Positions 4,890-19,746 of a DNA stretch of 20,527 nt are shown here, piece by piece. Each line of letters begins with the position of its first letter. The stretch's first letter is position 1. The notes below the pieces were generated by a model. It was not told the DNA's origin. It worked only from the letters and a program-made list of their open reading frames with translations, and made no database searches. The DNA is from a virus. A program made the translations under genes and the position numbers. The stretch spans positions 1-20,527 of IMG/VR virus record IMGVR_UViG_3300044641_001856, one strand, 5' to 3'.

Positions 4890-4898
4890 TGCTATAAT
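4890..4898 (+). promoter_or_regulatory. Extended -10 promoter candidate P2 (TGCTATAAT)
   Basis: This is a perfect TGN-TATAAT in the 40-base gap between portal and protease. A TTGAGA at 4868-4873 could act as a -35 box, but its 19-base spacer is long. The hexamer ends 9 bases before ATG 4908 and there is no Shine-Dalgarno sequence, so a leaderless or nearly leaderless message is likely. An 11-base palindrome, ATAACAGTTAT (4899-4909), follows directly and covers the presumed start site. Confidence 0.6.
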
Positions 4899-4907
4899 AT
4901 AACAGTT

Positions 4908-6215
4908 ATGTTAACAAACAAGGCTCATTGGGTAACTGAAGGTGACAATGTTCGCCTATCAATGCCTATCGGTAAAATAGACGTTGAACGCCGTATGGTG
5001 TCAGGTTTTGCAACGCTTGATAACGTTGATCGTCAAAACGATATCGTAACCACAGAGTCTAGTATAGAGGCATTTAAAAATTTCCGTGGCAATCTTCGTG
5101 AGATGCACCAGCCTTCAGCAGTAGGAAAGATTGTTTCTTTTAAAGAAGATAAGTATTTTGATCCAAATGATAAAAAGTTTTATAGTGGAGTCTATATCTC
5201 TGCATATGTTTCTAAAGGTGCACAAGATGCATGGGAAAAGGTTTTAGATGGAACATACACTGGTTTTTCAATTGGTGGAAACATTAAACAATGGGATGAT
5301 GCTTATGATGAAAAAATGGATAAAACTGTCCGTGTAATTAAAAATTATGAACTGCATGAATTATCTTTAGTTGATAATCCAGCAAATCAGTTTGCAAATA
5401 TTGTATCTATTGAAAAAGTAAATGGTCAAAATGTTGTTGGTGGATATTTATCAAAAGCAGAAATTGAAAATGTATTTTGGGATGCAGAAAGTGGTATCGT
5501 AACACTATCTGATTCAGAATCAGCAATAAGCCCAGTTAATGGCAATAAAATGCAAAACATAGGTTTCGTAGAAAAAAGTGATAAGAGTAATGTAGAAATG
5601 ATAAAATTCTTAGTTGATAGTGCTAAAGGCATTAGTACAATTAAGATTACTAAGGAGGTAAATCCAATGACAGAATCAACAGAAACAGCAGTAGACGCTG
5701 TAGTTGAAAATGCAGAGGTTGCTCCAGAGGCACAACCAGCAGAAGTTGTAGAAACTCCTGCAGTTGCTGAAGAAGTTGCCGTTGCTGAAGTAGCACCAGC
5801 AACCGAAGCAGTTGACGGTGGTGCAGACTCTCCTGTTGCAGAAGCAGCAGTAGAAGTAGAGAAAGTGCAAACTGCAGTGGTTGATCCAGTTGCAGAAGTT
5901 AAGGAAGAAGTTGCTAAGGCAGTTTCAGAAATTAATACTTCTCTTACTAATGCCTTTGGCGATCTTGCTGCAACTATTAAGACTCTAAATGAGCAGGTAG
6001 CAGCAGTAACAAAGTCTCTTGATGCAGTGACAACAGATGTTAACAATATCAAGGGTAACTTTAATGAGTTTGGCAAGCGAGTAGATCTTGTAGAAAAAGA
6101 CACCGCTTTCCGCAAGTCTGGCGATCTAGGCGAGATCGTGCAGGAATCACCACAAGTGGTTCAAAAATCCCTATGGGGCGGTCGTTTCCTCACATCAACC
6201 GACCTATTTAACTAA
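4908..6215 (+). CDS. Prohead protease fused to capsid scaffold (XkdF/S78-like)
   Basis: This protein is expected to help assemble the procapsid and then cleave the scaffold and capsid N-termini. Residues about 10-175 look like a phage prohead serine protease of the S78/XkdF kind: GFATLDNVDRQNDIV (33-47), a candidate catalytic His67 in REMHQ, Ser121 in TGFSIGG, and ELHELSLVDNPAN (148-160) typical of the family. About residues 175-250 form a connecting region. From about 254 on the chain is Ala/Glu/Val/Pro-rich (to about 335), then predicted coiled coil (KEEVAKAVSEINTSL through LNEQVAAVTKSLDAV), as in scaffolds. The start at 4908 has no Shine-Dalgarno sequence but lies just downstream of a TGCTATAAT element. 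A strong internal ribosome-binding site and in-frame ATG at codon 254 suggest a separate scaffold product. The capsid gene follows 29 bases after the stop. Confidence 0.88.
   Translation: MLTNKAHWVTEGDNVRLSMPIGKIDVERRMVSGFATLDNVDRQNDIVTTESSIEAFKNFRGNLREMHQPSAVGKIVSFKEDKYFDPNDKKFYSGVYISAYVSKGAQDAWEKVLDGTYTGFSIGGNIKQWDDAYDEKMDKTVRVIKNYELHELSLVDNPANQFANIVSIEKVNGQNVVGGYLSKAEIENVFWDAESGIVTLSDSESAISPVNGNKMQNIGFVEKSDKSNVEMIKFLVDSAKGISTIKITKEVNPMTESTETAVDAVVENAEVAPEAQPAEVVETPAVAEEVAVAEVAPATEAVDGGADSPVAEAAVEVEKVQTAVVDPVAEVKEEVAKAVSEINTSLTNAFGDLAATIKTLNEQVAAVTKSLDAVTTDVNNIKGNFNEFGKRVDLVEKDTAFRKSGDLGEIVQESPQVVQKSLWGGRFLTSTDLFN
5652..5658 (+). promoter_or_regulatory. Internal Shine-Dalgarno site (AAGGAGG) inside the protease gene
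   Basis: AAGGAGG lies within the protease reading frame with an 8-base spacer to the in-frame ATG at 5667. It is one of the best ribosome-binding sites in the window, while the protease's own start has none. This favours abundant independent translation of the C-terminal scaffold. Confidence 0.75.
5667..6215 (+). CDS. Nested in-frame capsid scaffold protein (internal start)
   Basis: Initiation at ATG 5667, in the same frame as the protease (codon 254), would give a 182-residue protein beginning MTESTETAVDAVVENAE. It contains only the acidic Ala/Glu/Val/Pro-rich stretch, the coiled-coil segment (about residues 85-150 of this product) and a basic/aromatic tail (VVQKSLWGGRF). That composition matches phage scaffolds, and the arrangement mirrors lambda C/Nu3 and similar genes where the scaffold is translated from within the protease gene. 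What is seen: the frame, the ATG and the AAGGAGG with 8-base spacing. What is inferred: that the product is made in excess over the full-length protease and later degraded by it. The C-terminal residues are candidates for capsid binding. Confidence 0.7.
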   Translation: MTESTETAVDAVVENAEVAPEAQPAEVVETPAVAEEVAVAEVAPATEAVDGGADSPVAEAAVEVEKVQTAVVDPVAEVKEEVAKAVSEINTSLTNAFGDLAATIKTLNEQVAAVTKSLDAVTTDVNNIKGNFNEFGKRVDLVEKDTAFRKSGDLGEIVQESPQVVQKSLWGGRFLTSTDLFN

Positions 6216-7489: not shown

Positions 7490-7828
7490 ATGAGTATTAC
7501 AATGGAAGAATTATCAAAAAAGACAGTTATGGCATTAAAGGCTTACGCTAAAAAAAATAACATAGAATTATTTGATTCAAACACTAAACTTGAAATATTA
7601 GAGATTCTTGCTAGTTGGATGCCGTCTGAAGAACAAAAAGAAGAAATAAAAGAAGTAAAACAAAAAGTAGCAATTTATTCACAAAAAAATTTACATATGG
7701 ATAATCTTAAACCAATTTCAGTGGGGTACAACATAGTAACTAAGGAGGCATCCGAAAAGTGGCTTAATCATAAGGCGGTGCGAGTAGCATCACCTGAAGA
7801 GATGGCTTCATATTACGGTAAGTCATAA
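7490..7828 (+). CDS. Small post-capsid protein with SAP/Rho-N-like N-terminus
   Basis: A 112-residue protein. Its first 45 residues (LSKKTVMALKAYAKKNNIEL, then NTKLEILEILASW) follow the helix-extended loop-helix pattern of SAP, HeH/LEM and Rho-N folds, small modules that often bind nucleic acid. The middle is a charged helix (EEQKEEIKEVKQK) and the last 40 residues include VGYNIVTKEASEKWLNHKAV. Proteins with such a module are common just after the capsid gene in phages, where they may be head-completion or minor head proteins; the exact role here is unknown. AGGAGA 6 bases upstream supports the start. Its stop overlaps the next start (TAATG), so the two are probably translationally coupled. 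Confidence 0.75.
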   Translation: MSITMEELSKKTVMALKAYAKKNNIELFDSNTKLEILEILASWMPSEEQKEEIKEVKQKVAIYSQKNLHMDNLKPISVGYNIVTKEASEKWLNHKAVRVASPEEMASYYGKS

Positions 7829-10603: not shown

Positions 10604-11236
10604 ATGCCATATAGCCGTGGTACGTCAAACAACATTATTGTTGGTGCAGCAGCGCTTTTTGTCGCAGATACAACTTTGACTCCAGGAACACTGGAATCTT
10701 TTGATGCAAGTGAATCTTTTAAAGATACACTATCAGACGAAGCAGATTACACTAACATTGGTTATACCATGAACGGTTTAGAATTACAGTTCCAACCAGA
10801 CTTCGGTGAAGTTCAGGTAGATCAAATTCTTGACGTTGCAAAACTATATAAGCAAGGTATGCAAGTTAATCTTGCTACCGCTTTTGCTGAAGCAACATTA
10901 GAAAACTTGCTTCTTGCATTAGCATTCTCCGATGCACAACTTACAGGAAACAAGGCAGCATCTACAGGTCAGACACTTAATCTATCTGCAGGTGAACTTG
11001 GAGAATGTCCAGTAGAACGAGGAATCGTTGCTGTTGGACCAGGAACTGGTGATTGTGATGACTCTGACTCTGTTGAGCGTGTTTATACAGCCTACCGTGC
11101 TCTATCAATTGAGAACGTAACTGTATCCGCAAAGCGTGACGAACCATCAATGTTTGAAGTTTCATTCCGTCTTCTTCCAGAAGATGTATCAGGATCCTAT
11201 GGTAAGATCGTAGATCGTACTTGGGGACAATCATAA
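10604..11236 (+). CDS. Major tail (tube) protein
   Basis: 210 residues. This is the single tube gene between tail terminator and chaperones; the absence of a sheath gene before it marks a siphovirus. The N-terminus MPYSRGTSNNIIVGAAALFV leads into beta strands such as NGLELQFQPDFGEVQVDQIL (about residues 59-78), a helix (QVNLATAFAEATLENLLLAL), and a C-terminal sandwich with VYTAYRALSIENVTVSAKRD and FEVSFRLLPEDVSGSYGKIV. This order is typical of tube monomers of the gpV/N4-like fold. A strong AAAGAGGTGA site lies 6 bases from the ATG. Promoter P4 upstream and a hairpin plus terminator downstream suggest it is mainly expressed as its own message, as expected for a protein needed in hundreds of copies. 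Confidence 0.86.
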   Translation: MPYSRGTSNNIIVGAAALFVADTTLTPGTLESFDASESFKDTLSDEADYTNIGYTMNGLELQFQPDFGEVQVDQILDVAKLYKQGMQVNLATAFAEATLENLLLALAFSDAQLTGNKAASTGQTLNLSAGELGECPVERGIVAVGPGTGDCDDSDSVERVYTAYRALSIENVTVSAKRDEPSMFEVSFRLLPEDVSGSYGKIVDRTWGQS

Positions 11237-11295: not shown

Positions 11296-11304
11296 TGATA
11301 GAAT
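11296..11304 (+). promoter_or_regulatory. Extended -10 promoter candidate P5 (TGATAGAAT)
   Basis: TGA-TAGAAT lies just after the tube terminator. It ends 9 bases before ATG 11314, which has only a weak purine stretch (GAAAG) upstream, so a leaderless or very short leader is likely. No -35 box seen. Confidence 0.5.
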
Positions 11305-11313
11305 AGAAAGATT

Positions 11314-12009
11314 ATGGCAACAACTGTTTATCAAAATAAAATAATAAAACTTGTTGATGGTACAGAATTAGAGATTGTCCCATTAAAAATAAAATATTTA
11401 CGTGAGTTTATGGAAGCATTTGAGTATGTAAAAAAATCCAAAAATGATGATGAAGCAATAGAATGTTTAATAGAATGCGTAAGAATTGCTATGAAACAAT
11501 ATTACCCAGAAATAAAATTAACAAAATCTGATGTAGAAGATAGTCTTGATCTACCAACAATTTATACAATTTTAGATATTTCTGCTGGAATTAAAATAAA
11601 TAAAAAATCAGAAGAAACGGTTAAAAATCAAGCAACTGAAAGTGGATCAACTTGGTCAGAATTAGATTTAGCAAAAATTGAGGCTGAAGTATTTTTGCTG
11701 GGTATTTGGAAAGATTATTTAGAACTAGAAGAGTCGCTATCTATGCCAGAACTAATGGCTACACTGTCAAGTCGTAGAGAACTTGAATATGAAGAAAAGA
11801 AATTTCTTGCTGCAATTCAGGGGGTAGACTTAGATAAACAGTCTGGATCTAGCAGGGGACAAAAAGAATGGGAAGACATGAAAGCCAGAGTATTTAGTAA
11901 AGGACAAACTAAAGATAGCAAAGACATTCTGGCTTTACAAGGACCAAATGCCAAGAAAGCAGGGTTTGGTATTGGTATGGGTATAGATTACGAAGACCTA
12001 ACAAAATAA
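11314..12009 (+). CDS. Tail assembly chaperone, long form (GT-like, no frameshift needed)
   Basis: 231 residues. Residues 1-100 (KLVDGTELEIVPLKIKYLRE, LIECVRIAMKQYYPEI, DLPTIYTIL) are the G-type chaperone domain that coats the tape measure. Residues about 110-231 (LDLAKIEAEVFLLGIWKDYL, LSMPELMATLSSRRELEYEE, KKFLAAIQGVDLD) form the T-type extension that recruits tube subunits. In lambda-like phages G and GT come from one gene by -1 frameshifting; here the long form is one uninterrupted frame. The N-domain is clearly homologous to the next gene's whole product, so the two are duplicates. A T-AAA-AAA-T run at 11601-11608 could allow a minor -1 slip to a stop at 11622. The start lies 9 bases after the P5 -10 element; its ribosome-binding site is weak. 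Confidence 0.82.
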   Translation: MATTVYQNKIIKLVDGTELEIVPLKIKYLREFMEAFEYVKKSKNDDEAIECLIECVRIAMKQYYPEIKLTKSDVEDSLDLPTIYTILDISAGIKINKKSEETVKNQATESGSTWSELDLAKIEAEVFLLGIWKDYLELEESLSMPELMATLSSRRELEYEEKKFLAAIQGVDLDKQSGSSRGQKEWEDMKARVFSKGQTKDSKDILALQGPNAKKAGFGIGMGIDYEDLTK

Positions 12010-12028
12010 TAAAAAATAAAGTTAGTCA

Positions 12029-12037
12029 TGCTATAAT
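12029..12037 (+). promoter_or_regulatory. Extended -10 promoter candidate P6 (TGCTATAAT)
   Basis: The same nine bases as P2, in the 57-base gap between the two chaperone genes. The hexamer ends 29 bases before ATG 12067. ACATAG-C-CTATGT (12040-12052) directly follows and may be an operator or leader hairpin. AGGAGGG (12053-12059) is the ribosome-binding site. Confidence 0.58.
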
Positions 12038-12066
12038 TAACATAGCCTATGTAGGAGGGTAAATTA

Positions 12067-12399
12067 ATGGCAACAAGCACGTATGAAGAGGTAGAACTAG
12101 TTCTTTTGGACGGTACTAAGATTAAAGCAAGACCGCTTAAAATCTCATTACTACGTCCATTTATGAAAAAGTTTGCAGAACTAGCAGAGGTGGCAGAAGA
12201 TAATGACAAGTCAACGACTGTCCTTATTGAGTGTGTTCAAATTGCTATGAAGCAATATAAGCCAGAAATTGCAGATGATACTAAAAAGTTAGAAGAGAAT
12301 ATTGATCTTCCAACTGTATATAAAGTAATTGAGTCTGCTTCAGGGGTTAAACTGCAAGATGCAAATGCATTGTTAAACACTGTTCTTGCAAATAATTAA
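12067..12399 (+). CDS. Tail assembly chaperone, short form (G-like paralog)
   Basis: 110 residues, aligned end to end with the N-terminal 100 residues of the preceding gene: MAT at the start, LDGT, PLKI, LR-x-FM, LIECVxIAMKQYxPEI, DLPTxY and an SAG/SASG-VK/IK end. It lacks the T-type extension and stops 15 bases before the tape measure gene, so no frameshift into a T frame is possible. It has its own promoter candidate and a strong AGGAGGG site 7 bases from the ATG, which fits the need for far more G than GT protein. Likely role: coats the tape measure during tail assembly and leaves before maturation. The function is inferred from homology to the long form and from position. Confidence 0.8.
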   Translation: MATSTYEEVELVLLDGTKIKARPLKISLLRPFMKKFAELAEVAEDNDKSTTVLIECVQIAMKQYKPEIADDTKKLEENIDLPTVYKVIESASGVKLQDANALLNTVLANN

Positions 12400-12414: not shown

Positions 12415-15400
12415 ATGAGCGATGTTAATGCCAAAATTGGCGTACAAATTGATACGTCACAGGCGTTAGCAGAACTTAAAAGTTTACAGCGACAGTTAGC
12501 ACTATTCCATTCATCAGTAGCAAAGGGTAGTGCTTCTGCTGCTGCTCAGCAAAGAAACATGCAGCAGAATCTGCTGAATTCAATAAATGCTACTGGCAAA
12601 TTTTCAGCACAGATGGGTGTTGTTAGAACATCCACAGAATCTTTTACAAATGCCCTTGAAAAAAACAAACTCTCAATGCGAGAGTATTTCCGTTATGCAG
12701 GGGGATCTACAAAAACATTTGGAAGATTATTTAAAGCAGAGTTTGACACAATTGGCAAGGTAGCCGAAGAACGTGTAAGAAGATTACAAACACAATATAT
12801 TAAATTAGGCCGTGACACAAGCGGAGCAATGAAGGCTATTTCAGTAACTCCAACTAGTGTAAACATGAAAGATTATGGCAATCAAGTTGCCATGGCAGCA
12901 CAGAAACAAGCATTATTTAATCAATTAGTAAAACAAGGATCTACCAATCTTTTAAATTTTGGTAAAAATACACAATGGGCAGGACGCCAACTTATGGTTG
13001 GTTTTACAATCCCACTTGCTTATTTAGGAACTGTTGCTGGCAAAACGTTTATGGATCTTGAGGCTCAGGCTATAAGATTTAAGCGTGTATATGGAGATAT
13101 GTTTACAACAACAGAGCAAACGAATAAGGCTCTGGATGATGTAAGAACTCTTGCAGAAGAATTTACTAAGTATGGCGTAGCAGTTGTAGACACAATGAAA
13201 ATGGCAGCAGATGCTGCAGCAATGGGTAAGACTGGTGCAGATCTTACTGCACAGGTTGCACAGGCTACAAGACTTGCTGTTCTTGGCGGGGTAGAACAAG
13301 GACAAGCACTAGAAACCACTATATCTATTACAAATGCTTTTGGTACTGCAGCAGAAGATTTAGCAAAAAAGATTAATTTCCTTAACGCAGTAGAAAACCA
13401 GACAGTTGTGTCTATTGAAGATTTAACAATCGCAATTCCTAAAGCAGGACCAGTTGTAAAACAACTTGGTGGAGATGTAGAAGATTTAGCATTTTTCTTA
13501 ACTGCAATGAAAGAAGGCGGTATTAATGCATCAGAAGGTGCTAACGCTCTTAAGTCTGGTCTTGCAGCATTAATTAATCCAACCAAAAAAGCATCAGAAA
13601 TGCTTGCTGGGTTTGGCATTAACATTAAAGCAATTGTTGAAGGTAATCAAGGAAATGTAAGACAAACAGTTATTGACTTTTCAAGAGCATTAGACACACT
13701 TGATCCACTTAATCGTGCTCGTGCTATTGAGCAATTATTTGGTAAGTTCCAGTTTTCACGTCTTTCTACTTTATTCCAAAACGTAACAAAGGACGGAACA
13801 CAAGCATCTAAGGTGCTTGGTTTGACAACAAACTCAGTTGAGCAACTTGCAATTATGTCTGAGCGAGAACTTGGAGTTTTAGAAAATGCCGTTGGAACTA
13901 AATTTAAAAAAGCAATACAAGATCTAAAACTAACACTTGAACCAATAGGTAAAACATTTTTAGAAGCAGTAACTCCAATTGCTCAATCAATTGCTGGCTT
14001 GTTAGATAAATTTAATAATCTTGGAGATGGCACAAAAAAGTTTATTGTTGTAGCAACTACCCTTGTTGGAGTAATTGGTCCAGTATTGTTGATGACTTTT
14101 GGTTTATTGTTAAACGCTGTTGCAAACGGCATTAAGTTATTTGCAGTAATGCGTAGCGGATTTTTAAGACTTGGTGGTAATTCAAAGATCCTTGCAGAAC
14201 AAACAAATTATTTATCAGTAGAGCAACTAGAGGCTGCAACAGTAGCAGCATCATTAAATCAAACACACACAAACCTTACACAACAGTTTATTCTTGAAGC
14301 AAGTGCAGTTAGAGCATTACGTCAGGCATATCTTGAAGCAACTGCTGCAGCAGCAAGATTTGCAGCAACAAACCCAGGAATGATGGGGCCAGGATTTAAA
14401 GGTATAAAAGGTGGAGGAACAAAAAAGTTTTCTTCTGGAACTACAGGCGTAGTTGGCGGGGAATCAGGAAAAGATTCTGTACCAGCATTACTAACTCCTG
14501 GAGAAGCCGTAGTACCAGAGCCAATAGCCCAAGATGATAGATTTAAACCATTAATTGCAGCACTTGTAAGTGGACAAATTGCTAAATATAATGGCGGAAC
14601 AACTGGAGTAAAACCAGGTTTAGCATTTGGACATGCGGTAGATCGTAGACAAGTTTCTGGAGCACAAGTATCAGAGAAGTTTAGGCAACTTGGTTTTGGA
14701 AGAGAAAATCTTTATACATCCGTTGGTTTTGACATTCCTAAAGAAATGAATGCACAATTAAATAGAACTAACTCAAGAGTAATGCTTGGCGATTATAGAA
14801 ATGCTCTTCTTGATAATAACTCTTTAAGAACGATGACTTTAAGTCTTGCTAAGAGAGGAATTCCAGATAGGGAAGCACTTAGAGTTGCACAACAAATTAG
14901 AGCAAATTTATTAAAGTCTTTAAGTGGTTTGCCAGATGGCGCTTTAATTAATGACAAAATGATTTACTCTAGAATGGGTAATGAAAGAACTGGAATTATG
15001 GGTGCACTTACAAAATCAGGAGACCCAATTATATCTACAGCAGCAAAGTCATTACTTGGTGTAGCGTCTACAAGTGCCGTTGGTGGCTCAAAAATTGCAA
15101 CAAGTAAACTAAAACCAATTGATGATGTAATAAAAGCAGTACAAAAAACTCGTTCAAATCCAGTATTAGTTAAAAAATTAAATGAGTTAAAAAAACTTAA
15201 TCCAAGTTTACAAATTCCAACTAGTTTAAATAATGCAGGTGAAATTGTTGCTTACAGAAGGCCTGAAATTACTGGTGGGAAAATTACTGGAAATAATGTA
15301 ATGAATGGTTTAGTTGATGGCAAATTTAGATCACAAAGAGAATTTTTGGGTGGTGGAAGACAAGTTCTTAAAATTACTAAATCAATGAATGATGCTTTTG

Positions 15401-18400
15401 ATAGATTAATTTCTAAACAACCTCAAAAAGAAACTGTTGCTGTTAGAGCAAGAGGAGAGTTTAAGCGTGATTCTCGTGGTAAATTAACTGCACTTACTGG
15501 ACAAAACACTGAAAGAAAACCAGCATCGGTTGGAACAACAAGTAGAAATGTTGCAGATAATAGAACAACAACTCTTGGTCCAAAAGAAACTGTTGTTCAA
15601 AGAATTTCAAGGCTACGTGGATTTGCAGATGCTCCACAAGTTGATACTAGAGGAGTTCCTTTATCTGAGGCTACATCTAAATTAGCAATGGGTCCTAGAG
15701 GTTTAATTGCTAAACAACAAGAAGAAATAAAAAAACAAACTGAAGCAATAAAGCAATCAACCCAAGCGACAGACGACCTTGCAAATCAAACAAAAACAAC
15801 AAAACAAAAATTAACTGATTTTAGTTCAAAAGCAAGCATGGGCATAGGCGCAGTTTCTGGTCTTACAATAGCAGCATCATTTGCTGGCGGTAAATTAGGA
15901 GAAATGGCTCAAACCATAATGCCGTTTGTTTTTGGATTACAAGGTCTCGTAATGCTTCTTCCATTACTTGCTAATCCTTGGGTAGCAGTAGTAGCAGCAA
16001 TAGCAGTACTTGGTGGAGTAATATATAAGATGAATAAAGATATGGAAAAAGCAAGGCAAGAAGGAATTAACCTTGCTAATGCTATGTCTATGACATCTAA
16101 AAAATTAATAGATCTATCTGTTATTTCTGGAACAGTTAGTGCAAGCGAAGCAGCAAATAGAAGAAGACAAAATTTAGTTTCTGGAACAGTTGATGCTCAA
16201 AGAAAGTTTGGTCAAAATGTAATAGAAAGTGAAGTTGGAAAAGAATTGCTTGCAAATATTGCTACTCAAGCAAAAGCGGGCGGAACAAATAAAGAAATTG
16301 CACAAAACATAGCAACTCAATTGGCAACTGCTGTAGTTCAAGGAGCAGTTACTCCAGAACAAGCAAAAAGTATTGCTTCAGCATTAGGAGAACAACTAGG
16401 TAGTTATGAAATTCCATTATCAGTAAGCGGAAAACTTGTAACTTTGCTTGGTCCAAATGGAGAAAAATTAGAAAGTGAACCATTACAAGTTGCTCTAGCA
16501 ATTAAAAAAGAATCAGCAAAAAATCTTAGCGAACAATTTGCATTAGCACAAAACAATAGAAGAAGAGAAGTTACTGCTGGCGGTGGTGGTGCAATTGCAG
16601 CAGGAGGACTTGCATTAGCGGGTGGTTTGGCTGCTACTGGTATTGGCGCTCCAATTGCTGCAGGAGTACTTGCTGCAACTGGTGTTGGATTAATTACAAA
16701 AGCAGTATTTGATCAAAACACAGCAAAATCAGCAAATGCAAAACTTGACGCTGCTGCTATTCAATTAGGACTTGAATCAATTGTTCAAAATCAACAACTT
16801 GTAGACGGACTTAATAAAGAATATGATCTAAAACTTAAAAACGCAAAGACTGAAAAAGAAATTTTAGATCTTCAAGCACAAAGAAAAACTGATCTAGATG
16901 CACTAAATACTGCAAATAAACAAACAGTAAATGACGTTGTTGGACTATCAAGTCAAATATCTGCAGAAAACTTTAACAAAGCAATTGGAACCTCTATTGA
17001 CAATTTGTACAAAGATGCTTCGGACGCTATTAAAGTATTTAAAGATATTGCTAAAGATGAACTAAATGATCTTGCAAATACAGATTTTAAAAAGACAATA
17101 CAGATTGGTTTTGCCTCTGGCCAGTTAACTCCAAACGCAGTAATTAATCTTTTAGATGCATCTAAAAAAGTACCAGAAATTGAAACAAAAATAAAAACCG
17201 TTGTAGAAAAACAAGGGTTTGCAGAAGCAAGCACACTTCTTGAATTAATTGGACAAACTGGAGCAGATGCAAAAACTATTGACTTAATGCTTAATTATAT
17301 AAATACTAACAAAGTTGATTTTGATAAAGATATAAGTGCTTTAGATATTCTTGCAAAATTCCAACAAAAATATGGAATTAAGTTAGACCTTAGTGTTAAT
17401 GGAGTAAGTCAATTAACAGTAGCAAATGATGCATTATCAAAAATTTCAACATATCCAGATAAAATAGATATCAAAGTAGTTCAAGAACTTGCTGGTGCAA
17501 ATCCAGAATTATTTGGAGATGCTTTAAAGAATTTTGATAAATTATCGGGAGGCGATCCTTTAATAAGCAAAACATTGCTTGTTAATTATCGGGTTGGAAA
17601 AATGGATCCACAACTTAAAGCAGCAGCGCTAGCCGAATTTAAGAATGAACCTGGAACAGAAGAAGAAAAAATTGCAAGATATATAGCAGAAGGATTTAAT
17701 GCAGCAACAACCAACATACCAGGCAGTGAAAATCCACCAGGTCCAGGTGCACGAAAAGCCACAGTTATTGATGACCTATTATTAAAACTAAAATTATTTA
17801 GAAAAGAATCTGTAAATGCCCTTGGCGGTTGGCAAGAACTTGTTAAACAACTGGGTAGTGGAAAGTCTATTAATGCATTTAAAGGAACAACAAACCAACT
17901 ACAGGGTGCTGGCGGTAATGAAAGTTTAGTTCAATTTGCAGAAGGGCTTAACGCAGAAGAAGCAGGTCAATTCTTTGACAAAATTACAACTAAGGCAAAG
18001 AACGGCAAGTTAGTATTAAATGATTATGGTAAATCATTAAATAAATTATTCCCAACAGTTCAGGCGGGTATATATTTAAGACAACAAGATCAAATTACAA
18101 GAGAACAAACAACTCAAAATAAAGCACTTGCAATGCTAAGATCAAGAGGAGTTGATGCTGCTACCGCACTAGAATTAACTGGCGATGCAGCCAACGCAGC
18201 AGCAATTGTAAGTAAAGACCTAGACGGCAAAGATTTAGAAAAAATGATTAATAGAACTAAAAAGGCTACTGCTGCAACAAGAGAATTTGAAAAAGCATTA
18301 AAGGCTGCTCAATTTGAAGCAGATGAAATGTCAGAGGGTGCAGCAGAAAAACTAAGTGAAGCATTTGACTATGCGTTTGTAGAAATTGAAAGAAAACAAA

Positions 18401-19746
18401 GAGAACTGTTTAAGTCAACAAATAAAATGACTCCAGAGCAAGTGGAGTTAAGTATTGCTATTGACGAAAGAGCAATTGAAAAAATTCAAAGTCAAATAAA
18501 TGGTATTAATTCACAAGTTAAATCTTATAACCGTACTCTTGATTTAATTGGTAGACAAGAAACAGTAATTACAGAAACCTATGACAAGAAAATTGAATCT
18601 TTAAATAAACAAAGAGATGCTCTTGAATCAATAAAATCATTAAATTCATTTTTACTTTCACAACAACAAAAACAACTTGGCCTTGCAAACGCACTAACCC
18701 AAGGAGATATTTCTGCAGCAGCAGCAGCAGCCCAAGAAATGAGATCAGAGGCTGCACAAGAAGCATTAAACAGAATGGGCACTGGATTAGAAACTGCATC
18801 AAGTAATTTAGAAGTACAAAAACAAAGAGAGTTGTCTTCAATTACCGCCGTCGTTAATGGCCAAAAGTTAACTAGAAAACAAATTGATGCACAGATTCTT
18901 ACTTTAAGCGATCAAATTTATAATATTGAAGTAACACAACTTGAGCCTTTACAAAAACAAGCAGATGCAAAAAGACAATTACTTTCTGATCTTGATTTTG
19001 AAATTCAAAAACAACAAACAATATTTGAAAAAAGTGGAATGACAAAGGCTGAGTGGAATCTTATACAACAATATGTAGATGCAGCAAATAGAAATGCAGA
19101 TACCCTTGCTACAGACATAGATGCAATTGCTTCATCCTCTAGTTCTGCAGCAGCCTCGTGGCTATCTATTCTTAAATCTATGAGAGAAGCAGCAGCATTA
19201 AAAACATTAGGAACTAATTCTGGCTCTACAAATCCCGCAGACATCGCTGCTGGAATAAAAGATGGATCAATAACAAAACAAAACTTAACACCTGCACAAG
19301 CAGCACAGGCTTCTGCAGTAGTTAAATTAACAATTAGTAAAATAAACAGTCAGATTGCACAACTTAATAAACTAACACAAAAGAAAATGTATGGCGGTAT
19401 TGTTAAATATATGTCATTTGGTGGAGCGGTTGGTTCAGATACCGTACCCGCAATGCTAACTCCTGGAGAATTTGTAATGAATAAGGCAGCATCAAAAGCA
19501 TATAGGCCATTACTTGAAAGAATGAATGAGTCTAAATACCCTGGAATGCTTGGTGGAGGCGGGATGACTCAAATTCCAGTAAACAACATTACAACATCTA
19601 TGAATGATAACTCAACGGCAGTGTATAATTATAATTTAGGATTCAGTATTAATGGCTCCAATGGAAGTGCTAAAGATATTGCTAATGCGGTAATGAGAGA
19701 AATTAAAAATGTTGACTCACAAAGAATTAGAGGGCAGAGGCGATAA
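12415..19746 (+). CDS. Tape measure protein
   Basis: 2443 residues, setting tail length; at the usual 0.15 nm per residue this predicts about 365 nm. The N-terminal helical region (QALAELKSLQRQLALFHSSV) is followed by a TP901-type tape-measure core at about residues 213-415 (MDLEAQAIRFKRVYGDMF, TRLAVLGGVEQGQALETTIS, DLAFFLTAMKEGGINASEGA). Hydrophobic segments lie at about 543-580, 1143-1205 and a Gly/Ala-rich one at about 1388-1432, candidates for membrane insertion during DNA ejection. Residues about 705-1110 are a basic region I do not recognise. A long coiled coil runs from about 1965 to 2220. The motif D-S/T-V-P-A-L/M-L-T-P-G-E occurs at 687-697 and again at 2342-2352. Arginine is mostly AGA. 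GAGGTGA (12405-12411) precedes the ATG. The stop overlaps the next start (GATAATGG). Confidence 0.95.
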   Translation: MSDVNAKIGVQIDTSQALAELKSLQRQLALFHSSVAKGSASAAAQQRNMQQNLLNSINATGKFSAQMGVVRTSTESFTNALEKNKLSMREYFRYAGGSTKTFGRLFKAEFDTIGKVAEERVRRLQTQYIKLGRDTSGAMKAISVTPTSVNMKDYGNQVAMAAQKQALFNQLVKQGSTNLLNFGKNTQWAGRQLMVGFTIPLAYLGTVAGKTFMDLEAQAIRFKRVYGDMFTTTEQTNKALDDVRTLAEEFTKYGVAVVDTMKMAADAAAMGKTGADLTAQVAQATRLAVLGGVEQGQALETTISITNAFGTAAEDLAKKINFLNAVENQTVVSIEDLTIAIPKAGPVVKQLGGDVEDLAFFLTAMKEGGINASEGANALKSGLAALINPTKKASEMLAGFGINIKAIVEGNQGNVRQTVIDFSRALDTLDPLNRARAIEQLFGKFQFSRLSTLFQNVTKDGTQASKVLGLTTNSVEQLAIMSERELGVLENAVGTKFKKAIQDLKLTLEPIGKTFLEAVTPIAQSIAGLLDKFNNLGDGTKKFIVVATTLVGVIGPVLLMTFGLLLNAVANGIKLFAVMRSGFLRLGGNSKILAEQTNYLSVEQLEAATVAASLNQTHTNLTQQFILEASAVRALRQAYLEATAAAARFAATNPGMMGPGFKGIKGGGTKKFSSGTTGVVGGESGKDSVPALLTPGEAVVPEPIAQDDRFKPLIAALVSGQIAKYNGGTTGVKPGLAFGHAVDRRQVSGAQVSEKFRQLGFGRENLYTSVGFDIPKEMNAQLNRTNSRVMLGDYRNALLDNNSLRTMTLSLAKRGIPDREALRVAQQIRANLLKSLSGLPDGALINDKMIYSRMGNERTGIMGALTKSGDPIISTAAKSLLGVASTSAVGGSKIATSKLKPIDDVIKAVQKTRSNPVLVKKLNELKKLNPSLQIPTSLNNAGEIVAYRRPEITGGKITGNNVMNGLVDGKFRSQREFLGGGRQVLKITKSMNDAFDRLISKQPQKETVAVRARGEFKRDSRGKLTALTGQNTERKPASVGTTSRNVADNRTTTLGPKETVVQRISRLRGFADAPQVDTRGVPLSEATSKLAMGPRGLIAKQQEEIKKQTEAIKQSTQATDDLANQTKTTKQKLTDFSSKASMGIGAVSGLTIAASFAGGKLGEMAQTIMPFVFGLQGLVMLLPLLANPWVAVVAAIAVLGGVIYKMNKDMEKARQEGINLANAMSMTSKKLIDLSVISGTVSASEAANRRRQNLVSGTVDAQRKFGQNVIESEVGKELLANIATQAKAGGTNKEIAQNIATQLATAVVQGAVTPEQAKSIASALGEQLGSYEIPLSVSGKLVTLLGPNGEKLESEPLQVALAIKKESAKNLSEQFALAQNNRRREVTAGGGGAIAAGGLALAGGLAATGIGAPIAAGVLAATGVGLITKAVFDQNTAKSANAKLDAAAIQLGLESIVQNQQLVDGLNKEYDLKLKNAKTEKEILDLQAQRKTDLDALNTANKQTVNDVVGLSSQISAENFNKAIGTSIDNLYKDASDAIKVFKDIAKDELNDLANTDFKKTIQIGFASGQLTPNAVINLLDASKKVPEIETKIKTVVEKQGFAEASTLLELIGQTGADAKTIDLMLNYINTNKVDFDKDISALDILAKFQQKYGIKLDLSVNGVSQLTVANDALSKISTYPDKIDIKVVQELAGANPELFGDALKNFDKLSGGDPLISKTLLVNYRVGKMDPQLKAAALAEFKNEPGTEEEKIARYIAEGFNAATTNIPGSENPPGPGARKATVIDDLLLKLKLFRKESVNALGGWQELVKQLGSGKSINAFKGTTNQLQGAGGNESLVQFAEGLNAEEAGQFFDKITTKAKNGKLVLNDYGKSLNKLFPTVQAGIYLRQQDQITREQTTQNKALAMLRSRGVDAATALELTGDAANAAAIVSKDLDGKDLEKMINRTKKATAATREFEKALKAAQFEADEMSEGAAEKLSEAFDYAFVEIERKQRELFKSTNKMTPEQVELSIAIDERAIEKIQSQINGINSQVKSYNRTLDLIGRQETVITETYDKKIESLNKQRDALESIKSLNSFLLSQQQKQLGLANALTQGDISAAAAAAQEMRSEAAQEALNRMGTGLETASSNLEVQKQRELSSITAVVNGQKLTRKQIDAQILTLSDQIYNIEVTQLEPLQKQADAKRQLLSDLDFEIQKQQTIFEKSGMTKAEWNLIQQYVDAANRNADTLATDIDAIASSSSSAAASWLSILKSMREAAALKTLGTNSGSTNPADIAAGIKDGSITKQNLTPAQAAQASAVVKLTISKINSQIAQLNKLTQKKMYGGIVKYMSFGGAVGSDTVPAMLTPGEFVMNKAASKAYRPLLERMNESKYPGMLGGGGMTQIPVNNITTSMNDNSTAVYNYNLGFSINGSNGSAKDIANAVMREIKNVDSQRIRGQRR

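Follow-up and report, generated by a model that had tools for sequence, protein, structure and literature searches.

Tail assembly chaperones of a probable actinophage lineage: gene duplication as the likely replacement of a programmed frameshift

Few recoding events of phages are as widely conserved as the G/GT frameshift of tail assembly chaperones. In phage lambda, -1 frameshifting within one gene yields a short (gpG) and a long (gpGT) chaperone and fixes their ratio at about 30:1, with G binding the tape measure protein and T recruiting the tube protein (PMC5009743). Hitherto, it has been hard to separate the importance of slippage itself from that of the ratio set by slippage. This raises the question of how a short and a long chaperone come about at a locus where the long one is encoded in a single continuous frame and the short one by a second gene. 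Such a locus is found in viral DNA of 20,527 nt—IMG/VR record IMGVR_UViG_3300044641_001856, positions 1 to 20,527—which is referred to as the window in the following.

A long and a short chaperone gene next to the tape measure gene

The features of the locus, all on the + strand, are:

10604..11236, +, major tail protein (MTP) gene, upstream neighbour of GT, assigned by a phrog_2175 match and by synteny with annotated Streptomyces phage MTPs
11257..11292, +, intrinsic terminator between the MTP gene and GT, 10-pair hairpin plus T run, fold z -5.4
11296..11304, +, TGATAGAAT, candidate extended -10 of GT, hexamer TAGAAT at 11299-11304, ending 9 nt before the ATG
11314..12009, +, GT, long chaperone of 231 aa, G and T domains in a single frame, no Shine-Dalgarno sequence
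11605..11655, +, G/T junction of GT, where relatives shift frame; a slippery heptamer is absent in the window
12029..12037, +, TGCTATAAT, candidate extended -10 promoter of G', a TGNTATAAT-type motif with fixed placement across loci
12053..12059, +, AGGAGGG, Shine-Dalgarno sequence of G', -10.1 kcal/mol
12067..12399, +, G', short chaperone of 110 aa, G domain only, paralog of the G half of GT, phrog_10504
12415..19746, +, tape measure gene, 2443 aa, tblastn matches to Streptomyces phage tape measure proteins with E to 3e-62 and a matching gene start

A preliminary description of this DNA had proposed a 231-codon long gene followed by a short paralog of its G domain. The coordinates of both genes proved exact (11314-12009 and 12067-12399, both +), as did their order, long first and short second. 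Over the first 96 residues, GT and G' share 41/96 identical positions (43%, BLASTP E = 3e-26), including the motifs that had been listed as common to both, and the two proteins match phrog_10504 independently (1.7e-21 and 1.7e-22). The C-terminal half of GT matches phrog_10474 (1.3e-13); G and T, fused in GT, stand as two separate PHROGs families. Annotated tail assembly chaperone (TAC) genes are homologous to the window proteins with tblastn E values to 6e-30, and the T half of GT has its homologue in the T open reading frame (-1) of annotated Streptomyces-phage chaperones, which confirms that the long protein is GT-like. Pfam and NCBIfam held no usable family for GT or G'.

Both genes are located between the MTP and tape measure genes, as in G/GT-type tail assembly chaperones, and the gene-level pattern of these systems is present: a short and a long product with a common N-terminal G, and a T extension on the long one. 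As judged from sequence, GT and G' would hence be the long (gpGT-like) and short (gpG-like) tail assembly chaperones of a long-tailed phage, with the MTP as the expected partner of the T domain and the tape measure protein as that of the G domains. At the other end of the window, positions 409-2853 encode an 814-aa protein upstream of the portal gene.

Structure predictions appear to agree with this homology and add little. The G' model (mean pLDDT 68) consists of a beta hairpin and helices. It aligns with HK97 gp13 (PDB 2OB9), a suggestive likeness only, as the match is weak (Z 4.2, rmsd 4.7 over 88 residues, 6% identity) and its rank of 2/350 is tied with unrelated rows. A Foldseek search of a viral library returned a named tail assembly chaperone (E = 2.7e-6). 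For GT, the AlphaFold model has a mean pLDDT of 49.8 with an unusable T part and found helical look-alikes only when compared with the PDB; a profile search of the sequences of solved structures (PDB) gave chance matches only, HK97 gp13 not being among them.

Frameshifting relatives and the G/T junction

The closest named relatives make the long product by changing frame. The matching phage records, 127 in number, all come from Streptomyces phages and have one G only, at one place per record; where a full taxonomy line was inspected, it gave Stanwilliamsviridae (Circinus, Braelyn, Sham, Coruscant, and others). Homologous G and T domains are arranged in these phages as in the window: the MTP gene and a terminator come first, then G and T, and the tape measure gene last. 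What sets them apart is a single G gene of about 115 aa, with no second G, and a T in the -1 frame, the shift being placed at C CCA AAT or, for certain genera, at C CCG GAA. Within the G/T overlap, 34/43 distinct frameshift loci show an in-frame X XXY YYZ heptamer, which is CCCAAAC or CCCAAAT in 30 of the 34, in the context GAC CCA AAY; in the remaining 9/43 (Braelyn/Coruscant type), C CCG GAA takes this position. Environmental frameshift relatives (L183, L188, L193, L200, and others) resemble G' in that their G carries TGCTATAATT and an AGGAGG leader. They differ from the window in that CCCAAAC/T leads into a T in the -1 frame and a GT gene is absent.

Annotation of these loci is uneven. For Sham and Francob, the records give the chaperone as a joined gene; in NC_070783 (Faust), MK620896 (Circinus), and other deposited relatives, T appears as a separate hypothetical gene or as a 60-base fragment, and the frameshift join that the sequence supports is missing. 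One frameshift-type chaperone locus (L329) is the sole match on a genome contig, binned as an uncultured cyanobacterium, and perhaps represents a misbinned phage contig.

Iterated profile searches gave a census of 330 sequences—329 loci and the window, among the matches listed, and not a measure of abundance. Of these, 249 have GT followed by G', and 73 have G followed by a -1 frame T; GT alone occurs in five, all of them cut by contig ends, and three are cut or broken by indels. The same pair thus recurs in at least 249 loci, whereas no isolate of the phage collection carries it. Since loci overlap, the distinct sequences weigh more than the raw counts: 163 are of the two-gene and 43 of the frameshift type. 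No clear intermediate between the two architectures was seen among the 330 listed. One open frame joins G and T in the window, as in the two-gene loci that are neither cut nor broken, and G' is kept in every uncut one. In two of the two-gene loci, the frames of G' (L043) and GT (L132) are broken by indels, either from sequencing errors or in decaying copies.

A frameshift gene misassembled or misannotated as two genes could mimic such a pair, and metagenome contigs bear this risk in general. The 163 distinct sequences stem from many independent contigs that agree in gene order and have separate promoters, and the two copies share only about 40% identity; this reading is refuted by the census, and its probability is negligible. 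Thirteen long two-gene contigs (65-110 kb) contain exactly two G and one T each, so that no frameshifting copy is hidden elsewhere on those thirteen; three frameshift contigs contain one G and one T each. The gene whiB, a key indicator of actinophages (PMC10202952), was found in 12/16 of these contigs. As the named relatives are in addition Streptomyces phages, the host is probably an actinobacterium—probably of the freshwater Actinomycetota, the freshwater origin being suggested by the kind of contigs matched.

At the point where the relatives slip, the two-gene loci have lost the site. An in-frame heptamer occurs at the GT junction in only 17/163 distinct two-gene loci, at scattered positions and with none conserved. 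Neither does a slippery site lead from the short gene into a T frame: C CCA AAY is destroyed, and the tails of window-type G' mostly read GAT GCA AAT where the frameshift relatives have GAC CCA AAY. Synonymous differences were compared along each gene as an independent test for recoding sites, with the frameshift G genes as a positive control. In the control, synonymous variation drops to 0.55 of expectation around the slip region, with 0.26 for the segment at Asn-Asp-Pro, whereas it amounts to 0.89-1.04 at the GT junction and 1.05-1.13 at the G' end. Hence, the test detects the recoding site of the control and none in GT or G'. The junction proteins themselves are compatible—PKSSSDGSGSTWEELDLAKLEA from the -1 frame of a relative versus KINKKSEETVKNQATESGSTWSELDLAKIEA in the fused product. 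Two hallmarks of the lambda mode are therefore missing: G and T are not in different frames, and no slippery site is conserved towards the end of G. This supports the proposal of the preliminary description that duplication stands in the place of recoding.

GT might nevertheless still make both forms by a hidden frameshift or by transcriptional slippage near the junction, the short form ending at an early stop as in bacterial dnaX, which would leave G' with another role. The junction is A-rich, and off-frame stops follow it soon, after a median of 6 codons in the -1 and 5 codons in the +1 frame; some short G could hence arise from a low level of unprogrammed slippage. A search of GT for residual frameshifting or transcriptional slippage signals found none, A/T runs being mostly 3-6 long and not conserved. 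Together with the missing heptamer, the missing synonymous suppression that is clear in the control, and a G' that is present in every uncut locus with the stronger signals, this makes hidden slippage very improbable.

Separate promoters and start signals for the two genes

The preliminary description had assigned each gene a promoter candidate and a ribosome-binding site, weak for GT and strong for G', and had placed the control of the ratio in transcription and initiation. Shine-Dalgarno energy and promoter placement were compared in 128 distinct GT/G' pairs. The computed Shine-Dalgarno medians are -1.1 for GT, -9.9 for G', and -9.3 kcal/mol for frameshift G, and that of G' is the stronger one in 128/128 pairs. 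In the window, the values are 0 for GT versus -10.1 kcal/mol for G', the strongest among 15 starts examined. The strong site of G' is thus as described, while GT bears no detectable site at all and is better read as leaderless than as weak.

Both promoter candidates are present as well. Single-site scans of the window for the GT and G' motifs performed no better than chance; it is the fixed placement across the 128 loci, not the single matches, that is informative. TGNTATAAT lies upstream of G' in 120/128 loci, mostly 23-29 nt before the ATG, and its -10 hexamer is TATAAT wherever found; a motif of the same type also precedes frameshift G genes. TGNTANNNT ends 5-9 nt before the ATG of GT in 126/128 loci, where about 0.8% would be expected by chance. 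The GT hexamers are mostly weaker: TAGAAT in 64, TAAAAT in 21, TATACT in 20, and TATAAT in 10. An intrinsic terminator precedes GT in 119/122 two-gene loci versus 1/120 shuffles, and the same scan found none between GT and G'. Consequently, full GT transcripts should carry G' too, and as the G' promoter adds more of it, G' should exceed GT.

A -10 element just before the ATG and an absent Shine-Dalgarno sequence are the pattern of leaderless actinobacterial genes, and the GT start looks leaderless rather than weakly ribosome-bound. In the window, the 9-nt spacing may leave a leader of up to about 3 nt. The phage seems to have two classes of starts. Two further starts look leaderless, with TATACT 7 nt before the in-frame ATG at 2872 (2859-2872) and TATAAT 9 nt upstream of the ATG at 4908 (4893-4908); the start at 7490 resembles that of G', with TGGTATAAT and a leader containing AGGAGA. 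In addition, many two-gene loci share a CCTA..TAGG dyad (often CCTATAGG), at 12047-12056 of the window and in homologous leaders, that overlaps the beginning of the G' Shine-Dalgarno sequence. Its role might be that of a binding site or of a feature of the start region.

How strongly the two start modes differ in output is judged differently from mycobacterial data. In M. tuberculosis, the highest promoter activity goes with an extended -10, and median RNA and protein levels are lower for leaderless than for Shine-Dalgarno genes (PMC3898074). In M. smegmatis, leaderless ATG starts are translated as efficiently as leadered ones (PMC4633059), so that a missing Shine-Dalgarno sequence does not by itself mean a weak start. 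Because this evidence is mixed, the main control is placed at the promoters, with the initiation mode as a second, uncertain layer. The promoter and start signals are split between the genes throughout the clade, and control of the G':GT ratio by promoters and initiation is what they suggest; as for the ratio itself, we infer it from these signals.

Origin of the pair and its meaning

In a tree of G domains, the G parts of GT (GT-G) cluster as a single long-stemmed clade (99/99); those of G' make up another (79/97) beside the freshwater-type frameshift G genes. GT-G stands slightly outside frameshift G and G'; a single clade of GT-G and G' is not rejected (AU p 0.42), and a single origin of the fused T is compatible with the data (AU 0.53). 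Within one genome, G' and GT-G are about 40% identical. Frameshift G is about 59% identical to G' and 45% to GT-G; hence, the old sequence and control seem to have been preserved in G', with GT-G having changed faster. Frameshifting is taken as the ancestral state because it is widely conserved (PMC5009743) and present in the outgroups. Duplication and in-frame locking thus appear to have replaced recoding once or very rarely.

The tape measure tree broadly agrees, except that two frameshift loci, L194 and L200, fall within the two-gene clade (support 100). The MTP of L200 is 91% identical to that of frameshift L193, and its tape measure is nearer to the two-gene group, which indicates recombination between the chaperone and tape measure genes. 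Both loci are mosaics with MTP and T near the frameshift relatives, as if both kinds of chaperone module could serve similar tape measures. Such mosaicism next to the chaperone module, together with the outside position of GT-G, would also fit an extra G acquired horizontally from another phage instead of duplicated in place. The unrejected joint clade and the long stem of GT-G, which is prone to misplacement, speak against this origin, and we consider it unlikely.

Taken together, we favour, with a probability of roughly 0.84, a replacement of the ancestral -1 frameshift by duplication of G, in which GT and G' have split signals and an excess of G' stands in for the slippage ratio. In the ancestor, both products would have come from one gene by -1 ribosomal frameshifting at C CCA AAY. 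The G region would then have been duplicated, one copy being locked in frame with T (GT) at the loss of its slippery site and the other (G') keeping G alone and likewise losing the site. G' would have retained the ancestral strong extended -10 TGCTATAAT and the AGGAGG leader, and in GT—behind the terminator—the weaker -10 would set the transcript start at the ATG or a few bases from it. The excess of G' over GT would substitute for the one formerly fixed by slippage, with G' presumably coating the tape measure protein and GT recruiting the MTP. We further regard it as probable that this holds for a whole widespread lineage of freshwater actinophages, in which the programmed frameshift was replaced once by duplication and the ratio was moved to two promoters and two start modes, one led by a Shine-Dalgarno sequence and one leaderless.

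The two proteins might instead be differentiated partners with distinct jobs—for example on different tape measure segments or at different assembly times—and no ratio replacement at all. The strong divergence of GT-G, both on its stem and from the G' of the same genome, would fit this, and two start types could respond differently over the infection. However, G' retains the sequence, promoter, and leader of frameshift G, and there is one T per contig, as expected of plain G and GT; distinct jobs are hence a rather improbable explanation.

For the favoured replacement by duplication, an engineered system shows why a separate G might be kept. In the TP901-1 mutant gpGfsT, an altered slippery site joins gpG and gpT in frame, as in GT, but this laboratory mutant lacks a separate G; its particles look normal and are non-infectious (PMC4493119). 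A lineage with locked G-T therefore needs G from elsewhere, which G' supplies, and this would explain its retention.

Among natural systems, gp26 and gp51 of T4 (Straboviridae) are adjacent paralogs (E = 2e-6). We take them to be the T4-like tail chaperone genes of Vladimirov et al. 2022 (Virology 566:9), a study that, by its title, reportedly has these chaperones arise by a mechanism other than frameshifting. They differ from GT and G' in having similar lengths, opposite strands, and no frameshifting ancestor in close kin. T4, named as the exception to the conserved G-T frameshifting (PMC5009743), may hence be a distant precedent for non-frameshift tail chaperones. No published description of a duplicated G together with a fused GT was found in the open-licence literature, and the apparent novelty lies in a clean replacement throughout a lineage whose kin still frameshift.

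For annotation, this means that a chaperone pair without a slippery site is not necessarily an error. The path from recoding to duplication can still be read from three traces: the slip site of the ancestor, the junction locked in frame, and the promoter that was inherited. A lineage that keeps both products without slippage, beside relatives that slip, would be a natural and direct test of whether slippage itself is needed.
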